DNA of 33,858 bases from Candidatus Brocadiales bacterium (GTDB lineage: Bacteria > Planctomycetota > Brocadiia > Brocadiales > Bathyanammoxibiaceae): assembly GCA_030586765.1 (NCBI GenBank), contig JAUQZZ010000002.1, forward strand, positions 1 to 33,858, given 5' to 3'. A model generated the notes under the pieces. The model was not told where the DNA came from and made no database searches. It saw only the letters and a list, made by a program, of their open reading frames with translations. The translations under genes and the position numbers were made by a program. Shown one piece after another: positions 19,600 to 32,236 of this stretch (position 1 is the stretch's first letter; every line of letters begins with the position of its first letter).

Positions 19600-20572
19600 C
19601 TTACCTTTCCTAACCCTTTGCTCTTCCTTTGCAAACGTCACCCTTGCTAGGGGCACGAAGATAGTCCGAAGAATTGGTCTAAACTTCCTAGACCTCTATG
19701 GCTCCCTAAGCACTGCTCTTTCTAGGAGGCAACGCCCGGTTATCGAAGACCTCGCCCTTTATAGTGAGGAATTTACCCTGGGGAAAGGCCCCAGGGCCTG
19801 TCTGCTCATCCATGGGCTGGGCTGTGGACCTATACAGATGAAAGAACTGGCAGAGCATCTCTCCCTGGCAGGCTTTACGACCCGCGGAATCCTGCTTCCA
19901 GGCCACTGCTCCTCACCGGAGGCGTTAGAAGGGGTCTCCTGGCAGGACTGGGAGGAAAAGGTGGAGAGGGAGTATATGAAGCTTAAAGGTGAATACAGGA
20001 GTGTATCTGTGATAGGCTTTTCCGTAGGGGGGTTGCTGGCCCTCAGACTGGGGACAAAACATGCCTTAGATAAGATTATTAGCCTGGGGGCGCCCTTGTT
20101 TATCATAAGAGAGTACTTCCCCTTTAAGAAACTTCTTTTCATTACCGAAAAACTCTTCAGTAGGATAAAGACGGTGAGAAAGAAGTGGTTCATCCAGTCA
20201 GGAGAGCTCTCTGGGTTCTTAAGATTTCCGACGGTCTCTCATTATCCCATAGCAACCATAAAGGCCATGGGTGAACTTATCAGAATCACTAAAGTAGATT
20301 TGGAGAGGATAAAATCACCCTTACTGGTGGTCCATTCAAGAAAGGATATGGTAGCCGCACCCTTCAGCGCCTTTTATATCATGCACTACGCAGGGTCTCA
20401 GGATAAGAGACTGGTATGGCTTAATAGAAGTGACCACCTAATGATGTTTGACAAAGAGAAGGCCTTACTCTTCCATGCTGTCAAGGAATTTATGGAAAGA
20501 GATACCAAGGAGGGGCCGTCCCTGGGTAAAGTTGTGCCTCACCTGGTAGCCGAAGGGGCACCTATAGCGTAG
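19577..20572 (+). CDS. Alpha/beta hydrolase (carboxylesterase / monoacylglycerol lipase-like)
   Basis: LLIHGLGCGP, nucleophile elbow GFSVGG, HSRKDMV (Asp) and SDHLMMFD (His) form a plausible triad. Overlaps the plsC end. Confidence 0.88.
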   Translation: MQIIQRISLPFLTLCSSFANVTLARGTKIVRRIGLNFLDLYGSLSTALSRRQRPVIEDLALYSEEFTLGKGPRACLLIHGLGCGPIQMKELAEHLSLAGFTTRGILLPGHCSSPEALEGVSWQDWEEKVEREYMKLKGEYRSVSVIGFSVGGLLALRLGTKHALDKIISLGAPLFIIREYFPFKKLLFITEKLFSRIKTVRKKWFIQSGELSGFLRFPTVSHYPIATIKAMGELIRITKVDLERIKSPLLVVHSRKDMVAAPFSAFYIMHYAGSQDKRLVWLNRSDHLMMFDKEKALLFHAVKEFMERDTKEGPSLGKVVPHLVAEGAPIA

Positions 20573-21705
20573 ACATAGTTATCATTAGAACCCACGTAAA
20601 GGGTTCCATCTGGACCAATGGCCGGTGAAGATTCTATCCAGTCTCCAGCCTCAAAGGCCCAGAGGGGTTTTCCTCCTGAATCTAGGGCGTAGAGTCTGCC
20701 TATATTCCCTCTGGTCTTATCCCACCCACCTGTACCAAAGTACACGGCACCCTGGGCATCTACAGCAGGGGAAGATTCTATCCACCCTTCCGTCTCAAAA
20801 GACCACTTTAAAGCACCTTCCTTTTTCACAGCATAAAAGTTCCTATCGTAAGAGCCAAAATAGATGGTGCCATCCCTTCCCAGGGCTGGGGTGCATTGGA
20901 TGGCCTTACCTGACTGGATTCTGAGGACCACCTCTCCCTGATGCGTTAGGCCGTATACCCTACCATTCTCTGAGCCTATAAAGATATTACCATCAGAACC
21001 CATGGCTGGTGAGGAAAAGGATGCATAGACCTCCCTGCCGAACCTCTTACTCCATTTTAGGCCGCCTCCTGGGTCTAGGGCGAAGAGTACACCGCCATTT
21101 GTGCCAAAGTATATGGTACCATCTAGCCCTATGCAGACACTGGAACTGATGGGGCTGGGAACCCGATAATCCCACTTCAGCTTCCCTCCCTGGTCAAGGG
21201 CGTACAGTTTATAATCACTAGAGCCAATATAGATAGTGCCATCAGGGGCTATAGTGGGAGAGGAAACGATACTGTCTCCCGTCTCAAAAGACCACCTCAG
21301 GCCTCCATCAGCCCTTATGGCATAGAGCCTCTTATCCCTGGAACCCACATAGACAGTCCCGTCCGTACCAAGGGCAGGGGAAGAGGTGATACCTTCCTGG
21401 GTAGAAAAACTCCACTTGCTTTCCCCTTCAGGAGTTATAGCGTAAAGGTTACCGTCTTCTGAACCCACATACACCGTACCGTCCAGGCCTATAACAGGAG
21501 AAGATGTTACGTTACCTGCGGTTAGAAATTTCCACCTAAGCATGCCCTCTTTTGGCCCTGAGTACGGACTCAGACCAGTATGTCTGGGGTCATGCCTAAA
21601 CATCTGCCACGGGATTTCCACATCCCCAGAGGCCCCACGAGATACACTGGACAGCACCAATAGTGCAATGAGCATGCATATGTTTCTAATACTGCACCCA
21701 GACAT
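20539..21705 (-). CDS. Secreted PQQ-like beta-propeller repeat protein, 8 repeats
   Basis: Signal-like N-terminus, WQMFRHDPRHTGLSPY, then eight ~40-aa units of (K/R)WSFxTxxxIxSSPAxGxDGTxYxGSxDxxLYAxxxxGxL. Confidence 0.92.
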   Translation of the reverse strand: MSGCSIRNICMLIALLVLSSVSRGASGDVEIPWQMFRHDPRHTGLSPYSGPKEGMLRWKFLTAGNVTSSPVIGLDGTVYVGSEDGNLYAITPEGESKWSFSTQEGITSSPALGTDGTVYVGSRDKRLYAIRADGGLRWSFETGDSIVSSPTIAPDGTIYIGSSDYKLYALDQGGKLKWDYRVPSPISSSVCIGLDGTIYFGTNGGVLFALDPGGGLKWSKRFGREVYASFSSPAMGSDGNIFIGSENGRVYGLTHQGEVVLRIQSGKAIQCTPALGRDGTIYFGSYDRNFYAVKKEGALKWSFETEGWIESSPAVDAQGAVYFGTGGWDKTRGNIGRLYALDSGGKPLWAFEAGDWIESSPAIGPDGTLYVGSNDNYVYAIGAPSATR

Positions 21706-21721
21706 CCCAGCCTCCTTTATC

Positions 21722-22828
21722 TTAAGGTCTCCCTCCTACGGCATAGAGTCCACCATCGCCAGAACCAAAATATATGGTGCCGTCTTCCCCTAAGGCAGGG
21801 GAGGAACGGATGACGCCTTGGGTCAAAAAGGTCCATTTTATTCCGCCATCTTTGTCTACGGCATAGAGTTTTTTATCCCAGGAGCCTACATACACGGTTC
21901 CTTGGGAGTCAACGGCAGGAGAAGAGGTAATTACACCACCTGTGGTACATGTCCACTTAAGGACACCCTCACTGGTAACGGCATAGAGTCTACCATCATT
22001 AGAGCCGAAGTAAATGGTGCCGTCTGGTCCTACGGCAGGAGAGGAATCTATCCAATGCCTCACCCCCAGGCTCCACCTCACTGTTCCTTTAGAGTCCAGG
22101 GCATAAAAGATGCCATTACTGGAACCCACGTATATAGAGCCATCTCCACCCACCGCCGGGGAGGAAGTCACAGGGCCGTGGGCGTTAAACCTCCACCTCA
22201 GCGTGCCGTCTTCATGCACTGCGTAGAGATAGGAATCATTCGAGCCTACATAAACTATACCCTCTGGCCCTATGGCAGGAGAGGAATCTATATACTTCCT
22301 GGTAGGAAATACCCATTGGACCTCCCCGTTCCCATTTATGGCATAAAGGTTATAGTTATCTGACCCAAGGTATATATCTCCTTTTCCTGTAACAACCGGG
22401 GAGGAAGTGACCCTTCCTGGAATCTGTCGCATCCACTTAAGCGTGCCTCTATGGTCTAAGGCAAAGAACTTCCCTCCCCAGGAGCAGAAATATATGTTAC
22501 CATCAGGTGACAGGGTCGGTGAGGCATACACCTTATCCTCGGCTGAAAAACTCCACTCTAGTTTTCCCTCACTGTTAAGGGCATAGAGTTTTCCATCTAG
22601 GGAAGCAAAATATATCCTGCCATCGCTACCCACTATGGGAGAAGAGTCCACGGATTTTCCCGTCTTAAAACACCATTTAAGGGAGGCCGTGGGGCTGCCG
22701 GGGTAGGGGCTTAGGCCTGTGCGCTGGGAGTCGTGGCGAAACATGGGCCAGGGAGGTGCCTCCCCCAAGAGCAAGAGACCTGGCGGAGATAGAATAAAGA
22801 AGAGTGCCAGGCAGGAGCTTAACCCCAT
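21722..22828 (-). CDS. Secreted PQQ-like beta-propeller repeat protein, 8 repeats (paralog of the adjacent gene)
   Basis: Signal-like N-terminus, WPMFRHDSQRTGLSPYPG, then eight 40-aa units such as RWSLGVRHWIDSSPAVGPDGTIYFGSNDGRLYAVTSEGVL. Confidence 0.92.
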   Translation of the reverse strand: MGLSSCLALFFILSPPGLLLLGEAPPWPMFRHDSQRTGLSPYPGSPTASLKWCFKTGKSVDSSPIVGSDGRIYFASLDGKLYALNSEGKLEWSFSAEDKVYASPTLSPDGNIYFCSWGGKFFALDHRGTLKWMRQIPGRVTSSPVVTGKGDIYLGSDNYNLYAINGNGEVQWVFPTRKYIDSSPAIGPEGIVYVGSNDSYLYAVHEDGTLRWRFNAHGPVTSSPAVGGDGSIYVGSSNGIFYALDSKGTVRWSLGVRHWIDSSPAVGPDGTIYFGSNDGRLYAVTSEGVLKWTCTTGGVITSSPAVDSQGTVYVGSWDKKLYAVDKDGGIKWTFLTQGVIRSSPALGEDGTIYFGSGDGGLYAVGGRP

Positions 22829-22944: not shown

Positions 22945-23070
22945 TTTAAATATTATAACAGCCTTAGCCTCCCTTCAATGATAATCTCTTTCCCCTTGAC
23001 CAGGTCAGGAAGGCCTAGTATTATTCAGCTACAAAGTCCCTTTCAAGGATTATTATGGTCTTTTCGTAAG

Positions 23071-24069
23071 ATGAGGAAAAGGACTCCAGTACCCACAAGG
23101 TTGATACCACTCCTTTTAGGTCTCGCCATGGGAGGGGTTCTTTTTGGGGGTGAGAATACCAGCAAGCTTCCCCGTCTGGTTTTTGATGAAACCCAGCATA
23201 ACTTCGGCGAGGTCTATAGGGGAGAAAAGGTAAGCCATAAATTTATTCTTAAGAATGAGGGAGAAGGTACCCTGGAGGTCCAGGGGGTGAGGCCCTCTTG
23301 TGGGTGCACAGCCGCAGCGCCCTCCAAAAATAACCTGGCCCCAGGAGAACAGGGCGATATAGAGGTTACCTTCCAATCGGATGTATTTGTCGGTAAGGTT
23401 ACTAAGACCATTGTTGTTGACACCAACGACCCAGAAACGCCCCATTACACCCTGACCATAGAAGCAGATGTTAAAGAAGAGGTGACAGCCAACCCTAGAC
23501 GATTATTCCTCGAACAAGTAAGGCAAGGACAATCCTTAAAGACAGAGATAGAGATAAAAGCAGTGACAGACCTAGACCTGGAGGTCACGAAGATTAATTC
23601 TTCCAGTCCTGTATTAGAGCTGGAAAAAAGACAGAGGGGTAATACCCATATCATAGAAGTCAGTATTAAGAAAGACGCACCCCTGGGCAGGTTTGGAGGA
23701 GATATCCTGGTTTTTACCAACAGCAAGAGACAGCCCGTCCTCACGATACCCTTCTTTGGGGAGATAATAAGTGACATCTCCATCTTCCCTCCCACGATAT
23801 CATATGGCACCATATCTAAAGGTAGCGAGGCGATGAGGCAGGTTCTCATCACTATCTACCAGGAGGGGGTGAAACTGACCAGGTTAGAGGCCATGCCCGA
23901 ATTTCTTAATCTTCGGGAGGCTACTGAGACAGGCGGTCGCTTCCACAGGCTGGAAGTCATCATCACTAAGGACGCCCCCGCAGGGAGACTGGAGGGCAGT
24001 CTTAAGATATACTCCACTAGCAAGGCCCAGCCTATTATAAATGTCCCTGTATATGCAGTGGTAAAGTAA
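23071..24069 (+). CDS. DUF1573-containing exported protein
   Basis: FDETQHNFGEVYRGEKVSHKFILKNEGEGTLEVQGVRPSCGCTAAAPSKNNLAPGEQGDIEVTF is the DUF1573 signature with the SCGCT cysteines. ATG at 23071 gives a signal peptide (MRKRTPVPTRLIPLLLGLAMGGVLFG). Confidence 0.9.
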   Translation: MRKRTPVPTRLIPLLLGLAMGGVLFGGENTSKLPRLVFDETQHNFGEVYRGEKVSHKFILKNEGEGTLEVQGVRPSCGCTAAAPSKNNLAPGEQGDIEVTFQSDVFVGKVTKTIVVDTNDPETPHYTLTIEADVKEEVTANPRRLFLEQVRQGQSLKTEIEIKAVTDLDLEVTKINSSSPVLELEKRQRGNTHIIEVSIKKDAPLGRFGGDILVFTNSKRQPVLTIPFFGEIISDISIFPPTISYGTISKGSEAMRQVLITIYQEGVKLTRLEAMPEFLNLREATETGGRFHRLEVIITKDAPAGRLEGSLKIYSTSKAQPIINVPVYAVVK

Positions 24070-24070
24070 G

Positions 24071-25378
24071 GTGAGACTCCTTGCCCTTATATTTCTCTCC
24101 CTTTACATATCCCTTCCCTCCTATGCAGAAGTAACAATCATCTTTAGTGGTGAAGAATCCGGCTATCTGGAGCCCTGCGGCTGCACAAAGGAACCCCTGG
24201 GGGGAATCGCCAAGAGACACAGCCTCCTTTCTCTCCAAGGGGGTCCGAATAAACTCCTGCCCATAAGTCTGGGAGACCTGGTAGGTCATGTAACAAGACA
24301 AAACGAAATAAAGATGGAGACCATGGTGGAATCCCTAAGGCAGATGGACTACATCCTCCACAACATAGGCGAGAAGGATATACACATAGGGCCAGAGGTC
24401 CTAAGCTATATCTTTTACTCTAGCCCTTTAGAACTGCTCTCTTCCAATGTGCTAATTTCCTCCTCCTACGGCCTAAAGGTCAGTCCTTTTGTAATCAAAG
24501 AGATAGAAGAGGGAGGTACTAAGGTAAAGATTGGCTTTTTAGGTATCTTGTCCCCTCACCTCCTTGAAGATAATCACAAGGATATAGAAATAATCCCACC
24601 CTCTGAAGCCCTCCGCCCTCTGGTGAACCAGCTAAAGGACCGAGTAGACCTCCTCATACTTCTCTCCCACGCCCCCTTTGAGGAGTCTTTAAATTTGTCC
24701 AGTATATTTCCTGAGTTCCAGCTGATTGTATCTGGACACGATGTTGACCACCCCATTGTAAGACGCTCGGGTAATACCACAGTTGTCACCTGTGGTACCA
24801 AGGGAAAACACATAGGGCTCTACCAGCCCCTCCATAAGCCCGGAGGGTTGGAGATATTCACCCTTGATGACCGTTACCACGAGTCCCAGGAGATGCTCAG
24901 CCTTCTCCAGTCCTATCAGCAGCGGCTTAGGGATGAGGACCTATTAAGTAAGGTAGAAAGGCAAGCTCCTCCAGGAGATGCCGCCTATGCAGGTAATATC
25001 ATCTGCGGCACCTGCCACCAGGCGGCCTTCCTCCACTGGAAGACCACGGGGCATGCAACTGCCTATGAGACCCTTGTCAGGGTGGAACACCAGTACGACC
25101 CCGAGTGTATCTCCTGTCATGTTACAGGGCTATATTACACTACAGGCTTTGAGTCTATAGAAAATACACCTCTGCTCAAGGGGGTTGGCTGCGAGGCCTG
25201 CCATGGCCCAGGAAGTCTTCATAAGGAACAAGCGATTAAGGGCCTTAAAGCCGAAGGCTATGGCAAGAGTACTGCCGGCACGTGTCAAACCTGCCACGAC
25301 CTAGAGCATGGCCCTGACTTCCATTTTGAAGGCTTTTGGCAGAAGATAATACACCCGAAGGAAGAGGTTAAGGGGTAG
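24071..25378 (+). CDS. Exported metallophosphatase-like (5'-nucleotidase-like) domain fused to a tetraheme cytochrome c554-like domain
   Basis: Signal peptide, then VTIIFSGEESGYLEPCGCTKEPLGGIAKR, LPISLGDLVGH, LIVSGHDVDHP. Four CxxCH: CGTCH (25004-25018), CISCH (25106-25120), CEACH (25190-25204), CQTCH (25283-25297). GTG start. Confidence 0.88.
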   Translation: MRLLALIFLSLYISLPSYAEVTIIFSGEESGYLEPCGCTKEPLGGIAKRHSLLSLQGGPNKLLPISLGDLVGHVTRQNEIKMETMVESLRQMDYILHNIGEKDIHIGPEVLSYIFYSSPLELLSSNVLISSSYGLKVSPFVIKEIEEGGTKVKIGFLGILSPHLLEDNHKDIEIIPPSEALRPLVNQLKDRVDLLILLSHAPFEESLNLSSIFPEFQLIVSGHDVDHPIVRRSGNTTVVTCGTKGKHIGLYQPLHKPGGLEIFTLDDRYHESQEMLSLLQSYQQRLRDEDLLSKVERQAPPGDAAYAGNIICGTCHQAAFLHWKTTGHATAYETLVRVEHQYDPECISCHVTGLYYTTGFESIENTPLLKGVGCEACHGPGSLHKEQAIKGLKAEGYGKSTAGTCQTCHDLEHGPDFHFEGFWQKIIHPKEEVKG

Positions 25379-25476: not shown

Positions 25477-27633
25477 ATGATATATCTAGCCTTCTTCTGG
25501 CACTTTCACCAACCCTTTTACAAGGATTCTGCCACAGGGGAGTATCTCCTGCCCTGGGTAAGACTCCACGGCATAAAGGACTATACAGGCATGGCCCTGA
25601 TCCTCAAGGACTACCCTGAGATAAGGCAGACCTTTAACTTCGTCCCCTGTATGCTTGAGCAGCTAGAGGAATACTCGAAAGGTATAGCTCGCGATAAGTT
25701 CTTGAAACTCAGTGAGTTATCTCAAAGTGAGCTCTTAGAGAAGGATGTACATTTTATTCTAGACAACTTCTTTTCTGCCCACTGGGAGAATATGATAGAG
25801 GTACACCCCAGATACCGTGAACTCCTACGCAAACGGGCCTTCGGAAAGAAGAGCGTAGATAGGGCTACACGAGATTTCGGGGAAAGGGATATCAGGGACC
25901 TCCAGGTGTGGGCAAACCTTTCGTGGTTCCATCCCCTAGTAATCCAGTCTGACCAAGAGCTCAAGGCCCTTATACAGAAGGGCAAAGACTTCACTGAAGC
26001 GGAAAAACAATTAGTGCTTGCTAAAGAGATTCAGGTGATTAGGGATATACTGCCTCTGTACAAAAAACTGGAGGACTCAGGACAAATAGAGACCACCACC
26101 AGCCCTTTCTATCACCCCATCCTGCCCCTCCTCTGTGACCCCTTAACGGCACGTCAGGCCCTTCCCAAGATACCTCTACCCGAGACAAGACTAGAGGCAG
26201 AAGAGGACGCAAGGCTACAAGTAGAGAGGGCTGTGTCGGCCCACGAGATGTACTTTGGCCGTAGACCCAGGGGACTCTGGCCCTCGGAAGGTGCCGTGAG
26301 CCACCACATCATACCCATACTATCTCGAGCGGGGATAAAGTGGACCGCCTCAGATGAGGAGATACTTGCCAGGAGCCTGCATATCCAGTTCTCTAGAGAC
26401 GACCAGGGCAAACTCAACCTGCCCCGTGTGTTGTACAAACCCTATAAGCTGGAGTCTGGAGATTCTCAAGTGAACATTATCTTCCGCGACCATAGTCTAT
26501 CGGACCTAATTGGCTTCCAGTACCAGAGGTATAATGTCTCTTTAGCAGTAGAAGACTTTATAAAGAGGATTAAGTCTCTGAAGGACACACCTCAGCCTCT
26601 CCTGGTAAGTGTAATCTTAGATGGGGAAAACGCCTGGGAGTACTACCCCAATAACGGACTAGACTTTCTGCGGAAACTGTATAGTAGACTGCAAGAGGAA
26701 AAAGGAATTAAGACAGTAAGAGTAAGTGACTATATGGAGATGCATCCTCCACAGGATACCATCAAAGAACTCTATGCAGGTTCCTGGATAGGACACAATC
26801 TTGCTACCTGGGTAGGGCATGAAGAGAAGAACAAGGCCTGGAACTACCTGGCCCATGCCAGAGACTACCTTAAAAAGGCAGGACCTCGGGACACAAACCA
26901 TCTGGATTTGGCCTGGGAACAACTCTATATAGCGGAAGGGAGTGATTGGTTCTGGTGGTATGGTGATGACCATTCCTCCGCCTATGATGAGACCTTTGAT
27001 AGACTCTTCCGAACGCATCTTAAAAACCTCTATAAATTCATGTCTGCGGTGTATCCCAGGGTACTAGACGTGCCCATCCTAAGACCCAGAAGGAAGAGGC
27101 CCTACAGCCTACCCAAGGGCTTCCTCCAGATAAAACTGGATGGTAAGGTGAGCAGTTTTCTAGAATGGATTTCCGCTGGGCGCTTTGTAGCCAAGGACAC
27201 CCCAGTGATGCACAGGGCCTCGGGAAGGGTTGTAACAGAGGCTTACTTTGGTTTTGATGAGGAAAATTTCTACCTGCGGCTAGATTTTGAAGAAGGCGAG
27301 ATAGAGCGTATAGGCACCCATGATAAGGTCCTTGTGACCTTCTTACATCCCCATGAGGCCAGGCTATGCATTACTGGGCCCTTAAGGCCCACCATGGACC
27401 TAGAAGTGCTAAGGGGGCCGAGTCCCAGGATAATCCCAGGGCTAGTAGCCACAGGGGAGATACTGGAACTAAGATGCCCCTTCTCAGAAATCGGTCTTGC
27501 ACCAACACATGAAGTGGAATTCCTGGTAGAGATAGAAAAAGACGGACAGGTAAGCGAAAGAATCCCAGAGCACTACGCCTTTGCCTTTACCACGCCTACA
27601 AAGGACTTCGAAAGGATACTTTGGCAGGTCTAA
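25477..27633 (+). CDS. Glycoside hydrolase family 57 protein (amylolytic type)
   Basis: YLAFFWHFHQPFY, RGLWPSEGAVS (nucleophile-region motif), SVILDGENAWEYYPNNGLDFLRKLY, and an additional C-terminal beta-rich domain. Confidence 0.9.
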   Translation: MIYLAFFWHFHQPFYKDSATGEYLLPWVRLHGIKDYTGMALILKDYPEIRQTFNFVPCMLEQLEEYSKGIARDKFLKLSELSQSELLEKDVHFILDNFFSAHWENMIEVHPRYRELLRKRAFGKKSVDRATRDFGERDIRDLQVWANLSWFHPLVIQSDQELKALIQKGKDFTEAEKQLVLAKEIQVIRDILPLYKKLEDSGQIETTTSPFYHPILPLLCDPLTARQALPKIPLPETRLEAEEDARLQVERAVSAHEMYFGRRPRGLWPSEGAVSHHIIPILSRAGIKWTASDEEILARSLHIQFSRDDQGKLNLPRVLYKPYKLESGDSQVNIIFRDHSLSDLIGFQYQRYNVSLAVEDFIKRIKSLKDTPQPLLVSVILDGENAWEYYPNNGLDFLRKLYSRLQEEKGIKTVRVSDYMEMHPPQDTIKELYAGSWIGHNLATWVGHEEKNKAWNYLAHARDYLKKAGPRDTNHLDLAWEQLYIAEGSDWFWWYGDDHSSAYDETFDRLFRTHLKNLYKFMSAVYPRVLDVPILRPRRKRPYSLPKGFLQIKLDGKVSSFLEWISAGRFVAKDTPVMHRASGRVVTEAYFGFDEENFYLRLDFEEGEIERIGTHDKVLVTFLHPHEARLCITGPLRPTMDLEVLRGPSPRIIPGLVATGEILELRCPFSEIGLAPTHEVEFLVEIEKDGQVSERIPEHYAFAFTTPTKDFERILWQV

Positions 27634-27645
27634 CAAGGAGCCCAC

Positions 27646-28656
27646 ATGCCAGAACTAAGAAAAGAGCCTGTATCAGGACGATGGGTAATTATAGCCACAG
27701 AGAGGGCACTAAGGCCCTCCGATTTTATCGCTGTGCCTCCCCCTACCATCAAGGGCAACTTTTGCCCCTTCTGCGAAGGTAACGAGGATAAGACCCCTCC
27801 AGAGATTATGGCCTACAGAGAAAGGGATACCAGACCAAACACCAGGGGTTGGAGGGTACGGGTAGTACCTAACAAATTTCCTGCCCTGGTAATAGAGGGA
27901 GGCCTAAATAAACGGGGAGACGGAATATACGATATCATGAATGGGATAGGTGCCCACGAGGTGATCATCGAGTGCCCACAACACAAGATATCCCTAACAT
28001 CCCTGCCACCTGCCCACGTCCAGGAGATAATATGGACCTATAGGGACAGGTTGGTAGACCTCAAGAAAGACAAGAGACTCATCTATGGAATGCTCTTTAA
28101 GAACGTGGGTGCAGTAGCTGGGGCCAGCCTTGAGCACACCCACACCCAGCTCATAGTTACCCCTATCGTTCCTCTGGTGGTTGCTTCTGAGATGGAGGGC
28201 TCTATGGCCTTCTACAAATACAGGGGAAGATGCCTCTTTTGTGACATGATAAATCAGGAGTTATCTAATGGGAGCCGAATGGTACTGGAAGGGGAGCACT
28301 TTGTAACCTTTGCACCCTATGCAGCTAGGTTCCCATTCGAGCTCTGGATACTCCCCAAAAACCACTCCTCCCACTTTGAAAATATACAAAGGTCCGAGGT
28401 GGAGGAGCTAGCAGAAACCCTGAGGGCCGCCCTCTGTAAGCTGGAGGGGGCTCTGGAACAACCCCCCTACAATTTTATCATCCATACCAGCCCCTTCGAC
28501 CAGCCAGAGTTGGCCCATTACCACTGGCATATAGAAATCATCCCAAGGCTTACCCGGGTAGCAGGCTTTGAGTGGGGGACCGGCTTCTATATAAACCCCG
28601 TTCCTCCAGAGAATGCCGCAGAATACCTTAAAAAAGTAGAAGTACCGCCATGCTAG
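27646..28656 (+). CDS. galT: Galactose-1-phosphate uridylyltransferase family (HIT superfamily)
   Basis: [36 protein letters not shown], catalytic HTHTQ ([15 protein letters not shown]), [32 protein letters not shown]. Confidence 0.92.
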
Positions 28657-28670
28657 AAAGGAGATAAGAA

Positions 28671-30116
28671 ATGGATATAACCTATGTTTCTTCGGAGGTT
28701 GTGCCCTTTGCCAGAACAGGCGGGTTGAGCGATGTGGCTGGGGCCCTGCCAAAGAGTCTACAGGAACTAGGCCATAAGGTCTACCTCTTCATGCCCCTTT
28801 ATAAGAAGATAAAACAAGGCCCCTTCAAGCTCTCTCCTACCAAAGGGAGTCTCTCTATACCCATGGGCAATAAGACCAGCACTGGGCTGGTATATAGCGC
28901 CCCCCTGCCCGGCACCCGCATATCCACATATTTTATAGAAAATACGACCTACTACGATAGAGAGGGTCTATACCAGGACCCAGCCACGGGAAAGGACTAT
29001 AAAGACAATTGCGAGAGATTCTCCTTCTTTTCTAAGGCTGTACTGGAAACCCTGCAGGTTTTAGGAATTAAACCAGATATAATTCACTGTAATGACTGGC
29101 AGTCTGCTCTGGTGCCTACTTACCTCAAGACCCTCTATAAGGATAATAATTCCTTTCGCGGGACCGCTAGCCTCTTTACCATCCATAATCTCTCCTACCA
29201 GGGGCTCTTCCCTAAGGAGGACATGCCCCTGACAGGACTGGATTGGAGTTACTTCAACTGGAAGCAGCTAGAATTTTACGGGAAAATCAATCTCCTCAAG
29301 GCAGGAATAGTCTTCTCGGATATAATCACCACTGTCAGTAGAAAGTACGCAGAGGAGATACAGACAGCGGAGTTCGGCGTAGGACTGGAAGGGGTACTGC
29401 GGGAGAGAACCGTAGACCTTTATGGAGTACTCAATGGGGCCGATTACTCCGTATGGAACCCCGAAAAGGATAAACTCATCCCTGCTAACTACAGCCTGAA
29501 GAACCTTAAAGGCAAAAAAGCCTGCAAGCAACATCTTCAGAGGAAGTTAAAGCTGCCTCAAAGCGACGCTCCTATAATAGGAATGATAGGAAGGGTTGCC
29601 TCCCAAAAGGGGTTAGATTTAGTAATGGAATGTTGGGACGAGTTAATGAAAGAGGATATAGAGTTTGTCCTCCTGGGCACAGGCGAGCCAAATATTGAAC
29701 AGGCCCTAAAGTCCGCGGCCGCTAGGTATCCTGGCAAGGCCTCTATCAACATAGGCTTCGATAACCAACTCTCCCACGAGATAGAGGCAGGGGCAGACAT
29801 GTTTCTCATGCCCTCCAAATTCGAGCCCTGTGGGTTAAACCAACTATACAGTCTAAAATACGGAACTGTGCCCATAGTGCGCAGTACCGGAGGTCTTGCC
29901 GATACTATAGACGCCTCGGTGGGCTTCTCCTTCCAGTCCTATTCATCCAAGGAGATGCTGGAAACCATAAAGAAGGCCTTAAAACTCTACCGTGACCAGT
30001 CAAAGTGGTTAGAACTCATGAAAATGGGGATGCTTCAGGACTGGTCCTGGGAAAAGAGCGCAAGGGAGTATCTCACTCTATATCAAAAGGCCCTTGCCAA
30101 GGTAAAGGGGGCATGA
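28671..30116 (+). CDS. glgA: Glycogen/starch synthase (GT5)
   Basis: MDITYVSSEVVPFARTGGLSDVAGALPKSL, HCNDWQSALVPTYLK, TVSRKYAEEIQT, MPSKFEPCGLNQLYSLKYGTVPIVRSTGGLADTI. Confidence 0.96.
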   Translation: MDITYVSSEVVPFARTGGLSDVAGALPKSLQELGHKVYLFMPLYKKIKQGPFKLSPTKGSLSIPMGNKTSTGLVYSAPLPGTRISTYFIENTTYYDREGLYQDPATGKDYKDNCERFSFFSKAVLETLQVLGIKPDIIHCNDWQSALVPTYLKTLYKDNNSFRGTASLFTIHNLSYQGLFPKEDMPLTGLDWSYFNWKQLEFYGKINLLKAGIVFSDIITTVSRKYAEEIQTAEFGVGLEGVLRERTVDLYGVLNGADYSVWNPEKDKLIPANYSLKNLKGKKACKQHLQRKLKLPQSDAPIIGMIGRVASQKGLDLVMECWDELMKEDIEFVLLGTGEPNIEQALKSAAARYPGKASINIGFDNQLSHEIEAGADMFLMPSKFEPCGLNQLYSLKYGTVPIVRSTGGLADTIDASVGFSFQSYSSKEMLETIKKALKLYRDQSKWLELMKMGMLQDWSWEKSAREYLTLYQKALAKVKGA

Positions 30117-32236
30117 ATCAGGTATATTTAATCCTAGCGCTACATAATCATCAACCCGTAGGCAATTTTAACCATGTCTTCGAAGAGGCCTGCTCCAGGG
30201 CATACCAGCCCTTCCTGGAGACACTGGAAAAATACCCAAGGATAAGGATAGTAGTACATTATTCGGGAAGCCTGCTGGAGTGGCTCTACACCCATAAGCC
30301 CAACCTCTTTGAAAAGCTAAGGTCCTTGGTCAAGAGGGGTCAGGTAGAGGTCCTGGGGGGAGGTTTCTACGAACCCATTATGGTCATGCTCCCTGAGAGG
30401 GATAGGCTAAGACAGATACACACCTACAGCCATTGGCTTAAGGACCACCTGGGAGTGGATGTTCGGGGCATATGGCTCGCCGAGAGGGTATGGGAACAAT
30501 CCCTGGTAAGGTCCCTGAGGAACGCAGGCATAGAGTACACAGTGGTAGATGACTCCCACTTTAAACATGCTGGACTAGAGGAAGAGGAACTGGATGGATA
30601 TTTCCTTACAGAGGACGAGGGTGAGATACTGAAGATCTTTCCAGCCTCTGAACACCTTCGATACTGTATACCCTTTGAAAACCCTGAAAAGACCCTGAAC
30701 CATCTCCGCCAATTGGGACAGAGGAGAGAAAACGCCCTGGTGGTGTACGCCGATGACGGAGAGAAGTTCGGCGGATGGCCAAAGACCTTTAAGCATGTCT
30801 ATGAAGATGGGTGGCTGGAGAACTTCTTCAGCACACTTCAGGCCCAGGGGGACTGGCTAAAGCTCATTACCTTTAGCGAAGCTGTTGAACGCTTCAGCCC
30901 CAGAGGTAAGATATATCTCCCTGACGCCTCCTACAGGGAGATGATGGAATGGGCCCTGCCAGTAAAGGGAATCTTCCAATACGAAGAGGTCTCCCACGCC
31001 CTGGGAGGCCAACCCTGGGCTCATCTCGCCAGGAGGTTTATCAAGGGAGGATGCTGGAGGAACTTCAGGGTAAAATACCCAGAAGCCTATCAGATGTATG
31101 CAAGGATGCTTGAGGTCAGTAAGAAGATCGCCTCCCTGGACAGGAGCTCAGAGATATTCCTCCCTGCGGAAAAAGAGCTCCACAAGGCCCAATGTAACGA
31201 TGCCTACTGGCATGGGATCTTTGGTGGACTCTATCTTCCTCACCTTCGCACCGCCATCTTCAGACACCTCCTAACAGCGGAGACCCTGGCGGATAGCCAC
31301 CCAAAGACCTCCCTAGAGACCCTTGACTATGACCTGGACACCAAAAAGGAGGTGAAAATCTCTAACCCAATGATAAATGCGTACTTCAAACCCGAAAGGG
31401 GAGGTCACCTCTACGAATTAGACTACAAGCCCAGGGCGGTCAACCTCTTGAACACCCTCAGCCGCAGGGAAGAGGCCTATCACAGAAAGGTCCTTTCCCA
31501 AAAAGAGACAGGGGAAGGGGCGGGCATCAAGAGTATCCATGAACTGGCCCCAAGGATAGAAGAAGGCTTAAAGGAGATACTTTTCTACGACACCTACCAG
31601 AGGGAGAGTCTGATAGACCACTTCTTCCAGCGCAGTGCCAGTCTGAAGGATTTCGCTAACGGACAGATACTGCAGTTAGGCGATTTCCTTACCGCCCCTT
31701 ACCAGCCACGGGCAGAGGAGAGGGCGGATAGAATTATCCTGGGGATGGAACGTTCTGGCAGCCTCTTACAAGGACAGGAAGGCCTTCCCTTGAAGGTGAA
31801 GAAAAGGGTAGAAGTGGACCATCTCAACCCCGTAATTCTTATCGCCTATTCCATTGAAAATTTATCTAGAAGGACTCTAGAAAGCTCTTTTGGTGTAGAG
31901 TTTAATTTCTCTATGTCCTCCGGAGATGCCCCAGGACGATATTATCTCTTAAAGGACGAGACCCCTGCGGGGCACCTGGCCTTAGAAGCAACCTTTACTT
32001 CTCAGAAAAAGATATCGCTGGTGGATGAAGGGCTTGGGTTAAGGGTGTCTCTGGAGTGGAATCCTCCCTGTGATGTATGGGTCCTACCCATACATACCGT
32101 CTCCCAGTCTGAATCAGGCTTTGAAAAGGTATATCAAGGTTCTACCCTACTCTTAAAATGGAATATAACCCTGGAGCCTGCAAGCACCTGGGGGACAGAG
32201 ATAAGAAAAGAAATAAAGGAGGTTAAGCCCCTCTAA
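30113..32236 (+). CDS. GH57 alpha-amylase / 4-alpha-glucanotransferase
   Basis: LILALHNHQPVGNF, GIWLAERVWEQSLV, VVYADDGEKFGGWP. C-terminal DUF1925/DUF1926-like region. ATG at 30113 overlaps the glgA stop (ATGA); the ORF-track start at 30005 lies inside glgA. Confidence 0.92.
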   Translation: MNQVYLILALHNHQPVGNFNHVFEEACSRAYQPFLETLEKYPRIRIVVHYSGSLLEWLYTHKPNLFEKLRSLVKRGQVEVLGGGFYEPIMVMLPERDRLRQIHTYSHWLKDHLGVDVRGIWLAERVWEQSLVRSLRNAGIEYTVVDDSHFKHAGLEEEELDGYFLTEDEGEILKIFPASEHLRYCIPFENPEKTLNHLRQLGQRRENALVVYADDGEKFGGWPKTFKHVYEDGWLENFFSTLQAQGDWLKLITFSEAVERFSPRGKIYLPDASYREMMEWALPVKGIFQYEEVSHALGGQPWAHLARRFIKGGCWRNFRVKYPEAYQMYARMLEVSKKIASLDRSSEIFLPAEKELHKAQCNDAYWHGIFGGLYLPHLRTAIFRHLLTAETLADSHPKTSLETLDYDLDTKKEVKISNPMINAYFKPERGGHLYELDYKPRAVNLLNTLSRREEAYHRKVLSQKETGEGAGIKSIHELAPRIEEGLKEILFYDTYQRESLIDHFFQRSASLKDFANGQILQLGDFLTAPYQPRAEERADRIILGMERSGSLLQGQEGLPLKVKKRVEVDHLNPVILIAYSIENLSRRTLESSFGVEFNFSMSSGDAPGRYYLLKDETPAGHLALEATFTSQKKISLVDEGLGLRVSLEWNPPCDVWVLPIHTVSQSESGFEKVYQGSTLLLKWNITLEPASTWGTEIRKEIKEVKPL

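Follow-up and report, generated by a model that had tools for sequence, protein, structure and literature searches.

Organization of the locus

The window, by which we mean the whole 33,858-nucleotide stretch of DNA analysed here, comes from a 1.96 Mb draft genome of a Candidatus Brocadiales bacterium. It contains an ORF for a UshA-like protein with a C-terminal tetraheme domain and, directly upstream, a DUF1573 gene whose stop codon ends one base ahead of the GTG start of that ORF. The features of the two genes are as follows.

22978..24069, + strand: DUF1573 / OS_HP2-like gene directly upstream of the UshA-like gene; an internal ATG near 23071 may be its actual start
23296..23310, + strand: SCGCT motif of the DUF1573 protein, residues 107-111; UGC in selenoprotein relatives
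24071..25378, + strand: UshA-like / tetraheme c554-like protein, 435 aa, GTG start
24071..24127, + strand: likely Sec signal peptide (MRLLALIFLSLYISLPSYA), from sequence reading and the N-terminal helix in the AlphaFold2 model
24128..24970, + strand: UshA/SoxB-type metallophosphatase-fold domain with a degenerate metal site, from profile, PDB match, alignment and AlphaFold2/Foldseek
24170..24184, + strand: EPCGC motif, E34-C38; the C38 position is selenocysteine (Sec, TGA) in relatives
25004..25018, + strand: heme site 1, CGTCH, residues 312-316
25106..25120, + strand: heme site 2, CISCH, residues 346-350
25190..25204, + strand: heme site 3, CEACH, residues 374-378
25283..25297, + strand: heme site 4, CQTCH, residues 405-409 (all four heme sites from motif, Pfam and the 52-sequence alignment)

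The UshA-like protein carries GEESGYLEPCGC at residues 27-38, LGDLVG at 67-72, GEKD at 100-103 and GHDVDH at 222-227, and the codons of both C36 and C38 are TGC. A lipoprotein reading of the CGC was rejected, the lipobox being absent. The N-terminal part of the protein matched the Thermus 5'-nucleotidase structure 2z1a (E 4.4e-7). The C-terminal domain, with four CxxCH sites, matched Pfam Cytochrome_C554 (PF13435) at 56.1 bits (gathering score 20.8) and the Nitrosomonas cytochrome c554 structure 1bvb (E 2.9e-14). AlphaFold2, run with a 52-sequence alignment, confidently predicted a UshA-type fold, with a mean pLDDT of 90.8 and a pTM of 0.89; this alignment replaced a shallow one of 24 close relatives, which had given a pLDDT of 66 and a poor heme domain. 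Since full-length homologues are present in most of 58 related genomes, the AlphaFold2 model is confident and 5'-nucleotidases ranked first in Foldseek (best E 1.3e-19), the ORF at 24071-25378 is not a product of chance. Its close relatives are found in Brocadiales including Scalindua, Brocadia, Jettenia and Kuenenia. A first-pass annotation of this DNA had read a calcineurin/5'-nucleotidase fold from the GD and GHDVDH motifs, followed by a tetraheme c554-like domain, and had proposed AlphaFold modelling as a check; the structural matches and the model bear out both domains. It had overlooked the upstream CxC partner gene and the known (seleno)protein status of both families.

The product of the upstream gene passed Pfam DUF1573 (PF07610) with 102.7 bits against a cut-off of 26.1 and also matched Ig-like Pfam families, and it scored 94 bits against NCBIfam OS_HP2 (NF041425), under the curated cut-off of 100. 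A PDB sequence search with this protein returned nothing beyond marginal SLC30A1 matches (E about 0.01). Both cysteines of its CxC motif were present in 60 of 60 sequences. Among 51 Brocadiales-order genomes carrying the UshA-like gene, most have a single DUF1573 gene, and in 46 it lies immediately upstream on the same strand; in one of the five exceptions (G049) the gene starts 653 bases from a contig end. Genome G016, with 99% estimated completeness, has neither gene. The co-occurrence of the two gave a Fisher p of 0.0007, a statistic that ignores relatedness and completeness. The pairing is also present in many other Planctomycetota, and among 79 loci drawn from several phyla, 55 had a DUF1573 homologue at position -1, a fraction biased by the choice of the loci by similarity. 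The DUF1573 protein with its invariant CxC is the operon partner, and occasionally the fusion partner, of the UshA-like protein.

On a contig filed under Omnitrophica (L040), a copy with the same upstream partner was nested among Brocadiales sequences and is probably a binning error or a recent transfer. Two adjoining PQQ-type beta-propeller genes (Beta-prop_ACSF4) occupy 20539-22828 of the window on the - strand, divergent from the DUF1573 gene, and a glycogen-type cluster (GH57, galT-like, glgA, GH57 amylase/glucanotransferase) occupies 25477-32236. Homologues of GH57, galT and glgA recur downstream of the UshA-like gene in several Brocadiales, and Wzy and a glycosyltransferase lie upstream in other Planctomycetota; both sets were set aside as system members, being lineage-specific.

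Conserved cysteines and hemes, drifting metal ligands

When the window protein was aligned to 2z1a, D-x-H read E28-x-S30, GD was kept (D69), GNH(E/D) read GEKD (E101, K102), as the first-pass annotation had it, the later SH was kept (H200), and GHxH retained its first His alone (H223). In what we take to be the corresponding UshA numbering, D41 is replaced by E, H43 by S and N116 by E, and H254 is lost. The full two-metal ligand set of 5'-nucleotidase/UshA (D-x-H, GD, GNH(E/D), H, GHxH) is therefore incomplete in the window protein. The CGC is located in the loop following strand 1. The D-x-H motif had been described as replaced around the CGC; its loss was found as described, but the CGC is not the replacement, since it sits 6 to 8 residues beyond the D-x-H site. 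Moreover, PCG(C/U) coexists with an intact D-x-H (L080, FTSDVHGYLEPCGU) or with E-x-H in several relatives. As judged from these alignments, the CGC is an addition beside the D-x-H site and not a substitute for it.

Conservation was assessed in 52 diverse relatives from Planctomycetota, Armatimonadota, Poribacteria and others, with Sec counted as Cys. In this family-wide alignment, a check proposed earlier, C36 was kept in 52 of 52 sequences and C38 in 51, the single exception being Phe. Q77, K81, N126 and every heme His were present in all 52, and the four heme sites are invariant. Cytochrome c554 has three bis-His hemes and one five-coordinate heme; three additional His (H328, H384, H428) are invariant in the 52 UshA-like sequences and would be compatible with such ligation. 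A PCGF motif, in which the second Cys is replaced, was found in a gene on a long branch (L086, 7926-9206) with two tandem DUF1573-like genes upstream.

The positions of the metal ligands were far more variable. D69 (equivalent to UshA D84) was Asp in 25 of the 52 relatives, H200 was His in 38, H223 (UshA H252) was His in 18, and residue 30 (UshA H43) was His in 13. Across the 52 relatives the family thus retains PCG(C/U) and the hemes and abandons the metal site. Among 25 close relatives, which form the window's clade, G-E-E, LEPCGC (LVPCGC in one), D69, E101, H200 and H223 show little or no variation, and given the last four, proteins of this clade may still hold one metal ion. The earlier description of a degenerate phosphatase scaffold is accordingly apt for the family, in which the ligands drift, and less so for the window's own clade. 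Conserved canonical metal ligands, named at that time as evidence that would speak against a redox reading, were not found over the 52 relatives, apart from the four positions kept in the clade.

Selenocysteine forms and fused genes

L085 (Abyssobacteria) and L080 (Poribacteria) have an in-frame TGA at the second Cys codon (PCGU), and the reading frame continues without a stop before and after it. In both, a 6-bp hairpin with the apical loop AGGUC begins 15 nt from the UGA, and tRNA-Sec scored above threshold in both genomes. In a further Planctomycetota lineage a PCGU gene is followed by a Cys paralogue. There, L126 (6019-9598) and its relatives (G080, G108, G234) have two UshA-like tetraheme genes in tandem, of which the first encodes PCGU (Sec) and the second the Cys motif VCGC, which makes a natural Sec/Cys paralogue pair. 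The tree of the UshA-like family requires at least two Cys/Sec changes, and selenocysteine occupies the C38 position in at least two lineages. The window's genome encodes a tRNA-Sec (G000:C215:3308-3400, 72 bits), and its organism likely makes selenoproteins, although its own UshA-like protein has Cys at this position.

In genome G080, where a PCGU gene is present, two DUF1573 genes carry TGA instead of the first Cys codon of their motif (GUGC, TUGC); they lie on contigs other than that of the PCGU gene.

L137 about 4500 and L138 about 4600, - strand: candidate UGC DUF1573 genes of G080, one of them adjoining a Cys-form DUF1573 gene

DUF1573 is therewith itself a predicted selenoprotein (UGC) in this genome, alongside the PCGU protein. 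Sec/Cys exchange is an established mark of catalytic redox cysteines in selenoproteins, and it occurs here at the conserved motif; Cys and Sec can also serve as metal ligands.

Both families are found in selenoprotein lists, where UshA-like is given as CxU and OS_HP2/DUF1573 as UxC or UGC (PMC2398784, PMC9312934, PMC13188914). PMC2398784 did not count UshA-like among the families that conserve a Cys-based redox motif, yet its own table gives CxU. Members of these selenoprotein families from Desulfobacterota are recorded in PMC9312934 and PMC13188914.

Three single ORFs from two lineages, all in draft genomes, combine DUF1573 repeats, the UshA-like domain and the tetraheme domain in one polypeptide. 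That of L022 (genome G009) is 696 aa long and has TCDCT and then EPCGC. Those of L135 (900 aa) and L136 (1017 aa), both in genome G085, have SCGC and PCTC, respectively, in place of PCGC. The L022 junction lacks the end portion of DUF1573 as well as the UshA-like protein's signal peptide, and is therefore more than a missed stop codon.

Relation to known families and proposed role

The best NCBIfam match of the window protein was NF041198, UshA-like (seleno)protein (CxU, COG0737), at 255.3 bits with both domains covered, a little under the cut-off of 275. Like that family, it has the UshA fold, PCG(C/U) after strand 1 and the C554-like tetraheme domain (profile positions 354-519 matched), and its EPCGC (34-38) aligns with the TGA-encoded U of L080 and L085. 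The suspicion that related fusions were already in databases was thus right, as NF041198 covers the UshA fold together with the tetraheme domain. However, the window protein is under the cut-off, is a Cys form and has DUF1573 directly upstream, and the tree places the anammox-lineage group on a starred branch of its own. From these comparisons it is best placed in a related Cys-form subfamily near NF041198 and is not filed as a member. The upstream gene shares the DUF1573 domain and the invariant CxC with OS_HP2 (NF041425)/PF07610; OS_HP2 members have UGC, whereas the window gene is a Cys form and is paired with a UshA-like gene.

The N-terminal domain fold is shared with Thermus 5'-nucleotidase 2z1a and E. 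coli UshA, but the window protein is shorter, its dinuclear-site ligands are altered and it carries a heme domain where UshA has its C-terminal domain. Four CxxCH in a similar layout are present in Nitrosomonas cytochrome c554 (1bvb), whereas in the window protein the heme domain is fused to the UshA-like domain; the Nitrosomonas-type model NF043010 gave 51 bits against a cut-off of 400. The SoxB thiosulfohydrolase belongs to the same fold superfamily but has no heme domain, and its model gave 24.2 bits (cut-off 550), nucleotidase models being likewise weak. In the literature searched, from which most subscription papers fell outside coverage, we found no link between the UshA-like and DUF1573 families, no fusion and no function; searches on metallophosphatase or nucleotidase with multiheme/c554 returned nothing, and no biochemical characterisation of any family member was found. 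The UshA-like family and its use of Sec are already published and catalogued. What is new is the connection of UshA-like with DUF1573 through adjacency, fusion and parallel Sec use.

Because PCG(C/U) and the hemes are conserved, Sec is exchanged for Cys, DUF1573 is adjacent and fusions occur, we think that the window protein is probably an exported thiol (selenol in relatives)-disulfide oxidoreductase built on the UshA fold. The PCGC cysteines would cycle between dithiol and disulfide near the former active-site cleft and would trade electrons with the DUF1573 CxC or a DUF1573-bound substrate. The c554-like tetraheme chain would accept or donate these electrons and connect the pair to respiratory cytochromes. 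More broadly, and only tentatively, DUF1573/OS_HP2, with CxC or UGC, and the UshA-like tetraheme protein, with PCGC or PCGU, could together make up a single extracytoplasmic thiol/selenol relay, wired by hemes and so far undescribed. This relay would be common among Planctomycetota, anammox bacteria included, would also occur in several other phyla, and might act on carrier-bound sulfur species or protein disulfides. The acidic and His ligands conserved in the window's clade, which a pure thiol oxidoreductase does not need, count against the oxidoreductase reading, as do the possible role of Cys/Sec as metal ligands, the PCGF of L086 and the exclusion of UshA-like by PMC2398784.

Those clade-wide ligands would be explained if C36 and C38 ligated a redox-active or structural metal together with D69, E101, H200 and H223 in a remodelled site, the hemes supplying electrons to the metal. 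Sec is known as a metal ligand in some enzymes, and the CGC loop follows strand 1, as does UshA's ligand-bearing loop. We nevertheless consider this rather unlikely, since D/H ligands are lost while the CGC persists across the 52 relatives, so that a shared metal site is no family-wide need.

SoxB works with a cysteine-carrying partner, and SoxB and the SoxB-SoxYZ complex were among the Foldseek matches. In a SoxB/SoxYZ-like sulfur pathway, the Ig-like DUF1573 protein with its reactive Cys pair would carry sulfur species and the heme-bearing UshA-like domain would process the cargo, an arrangement with which the common fold, the Ig-like matches of DUF1573 and the tight pairing and fusion agree. 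This seems improbable to us, as no Sox gene adjoined the pair among the annotated neighbour clusters and the catalytic metal site of SoxB is degenerate in the UshA-like family.

The protein is very improbably still a phosphohydrolase or nucleotidase with a tetraheme domain merely appended. The fold and several ligand positions persist, but the four UshA ligand changes listed above are found in the window protein, the D84 and H252 equivalents are lost family-wide, and Sec/Cys exchange has no role in hydrolytic chemistry; nucleotidase activity of the window protein is thus unlikely on sequence grounds. A fifth heme on the CGC as a contracted CxCH-type motif, an attachment reportedly described in an anammox bacterium, can be dismissed, because residue 39 is S, A, T, Y, F or E and never His in 52 sequences and Sec at the C38 position is incompatible with it.

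As to the oxidoreductase reading, the first-pass preference for redox over nucleotidase chemistry is partly supported, indirectly, by PCG(C/U)/heme conservation and Sec exchange. The module points to an uncharacterised electron-transfer system that would act extracytoplasmically on sulfur or selenium bonds. Selenoprotein lists have included the UshA-like and DUF1573 families since 2008, and the literature searched gives no function for either; adjacency, fusion and parallel Sec use turn these two orphan families into one testable system. The UshA-like family also illustrates clearly how a hydrolase fold has apparently been turned to redox use. Anammox energy metabolism runs on multiheme proteins, and anammox bacteria gain here a conserved candidate redox partner pair.
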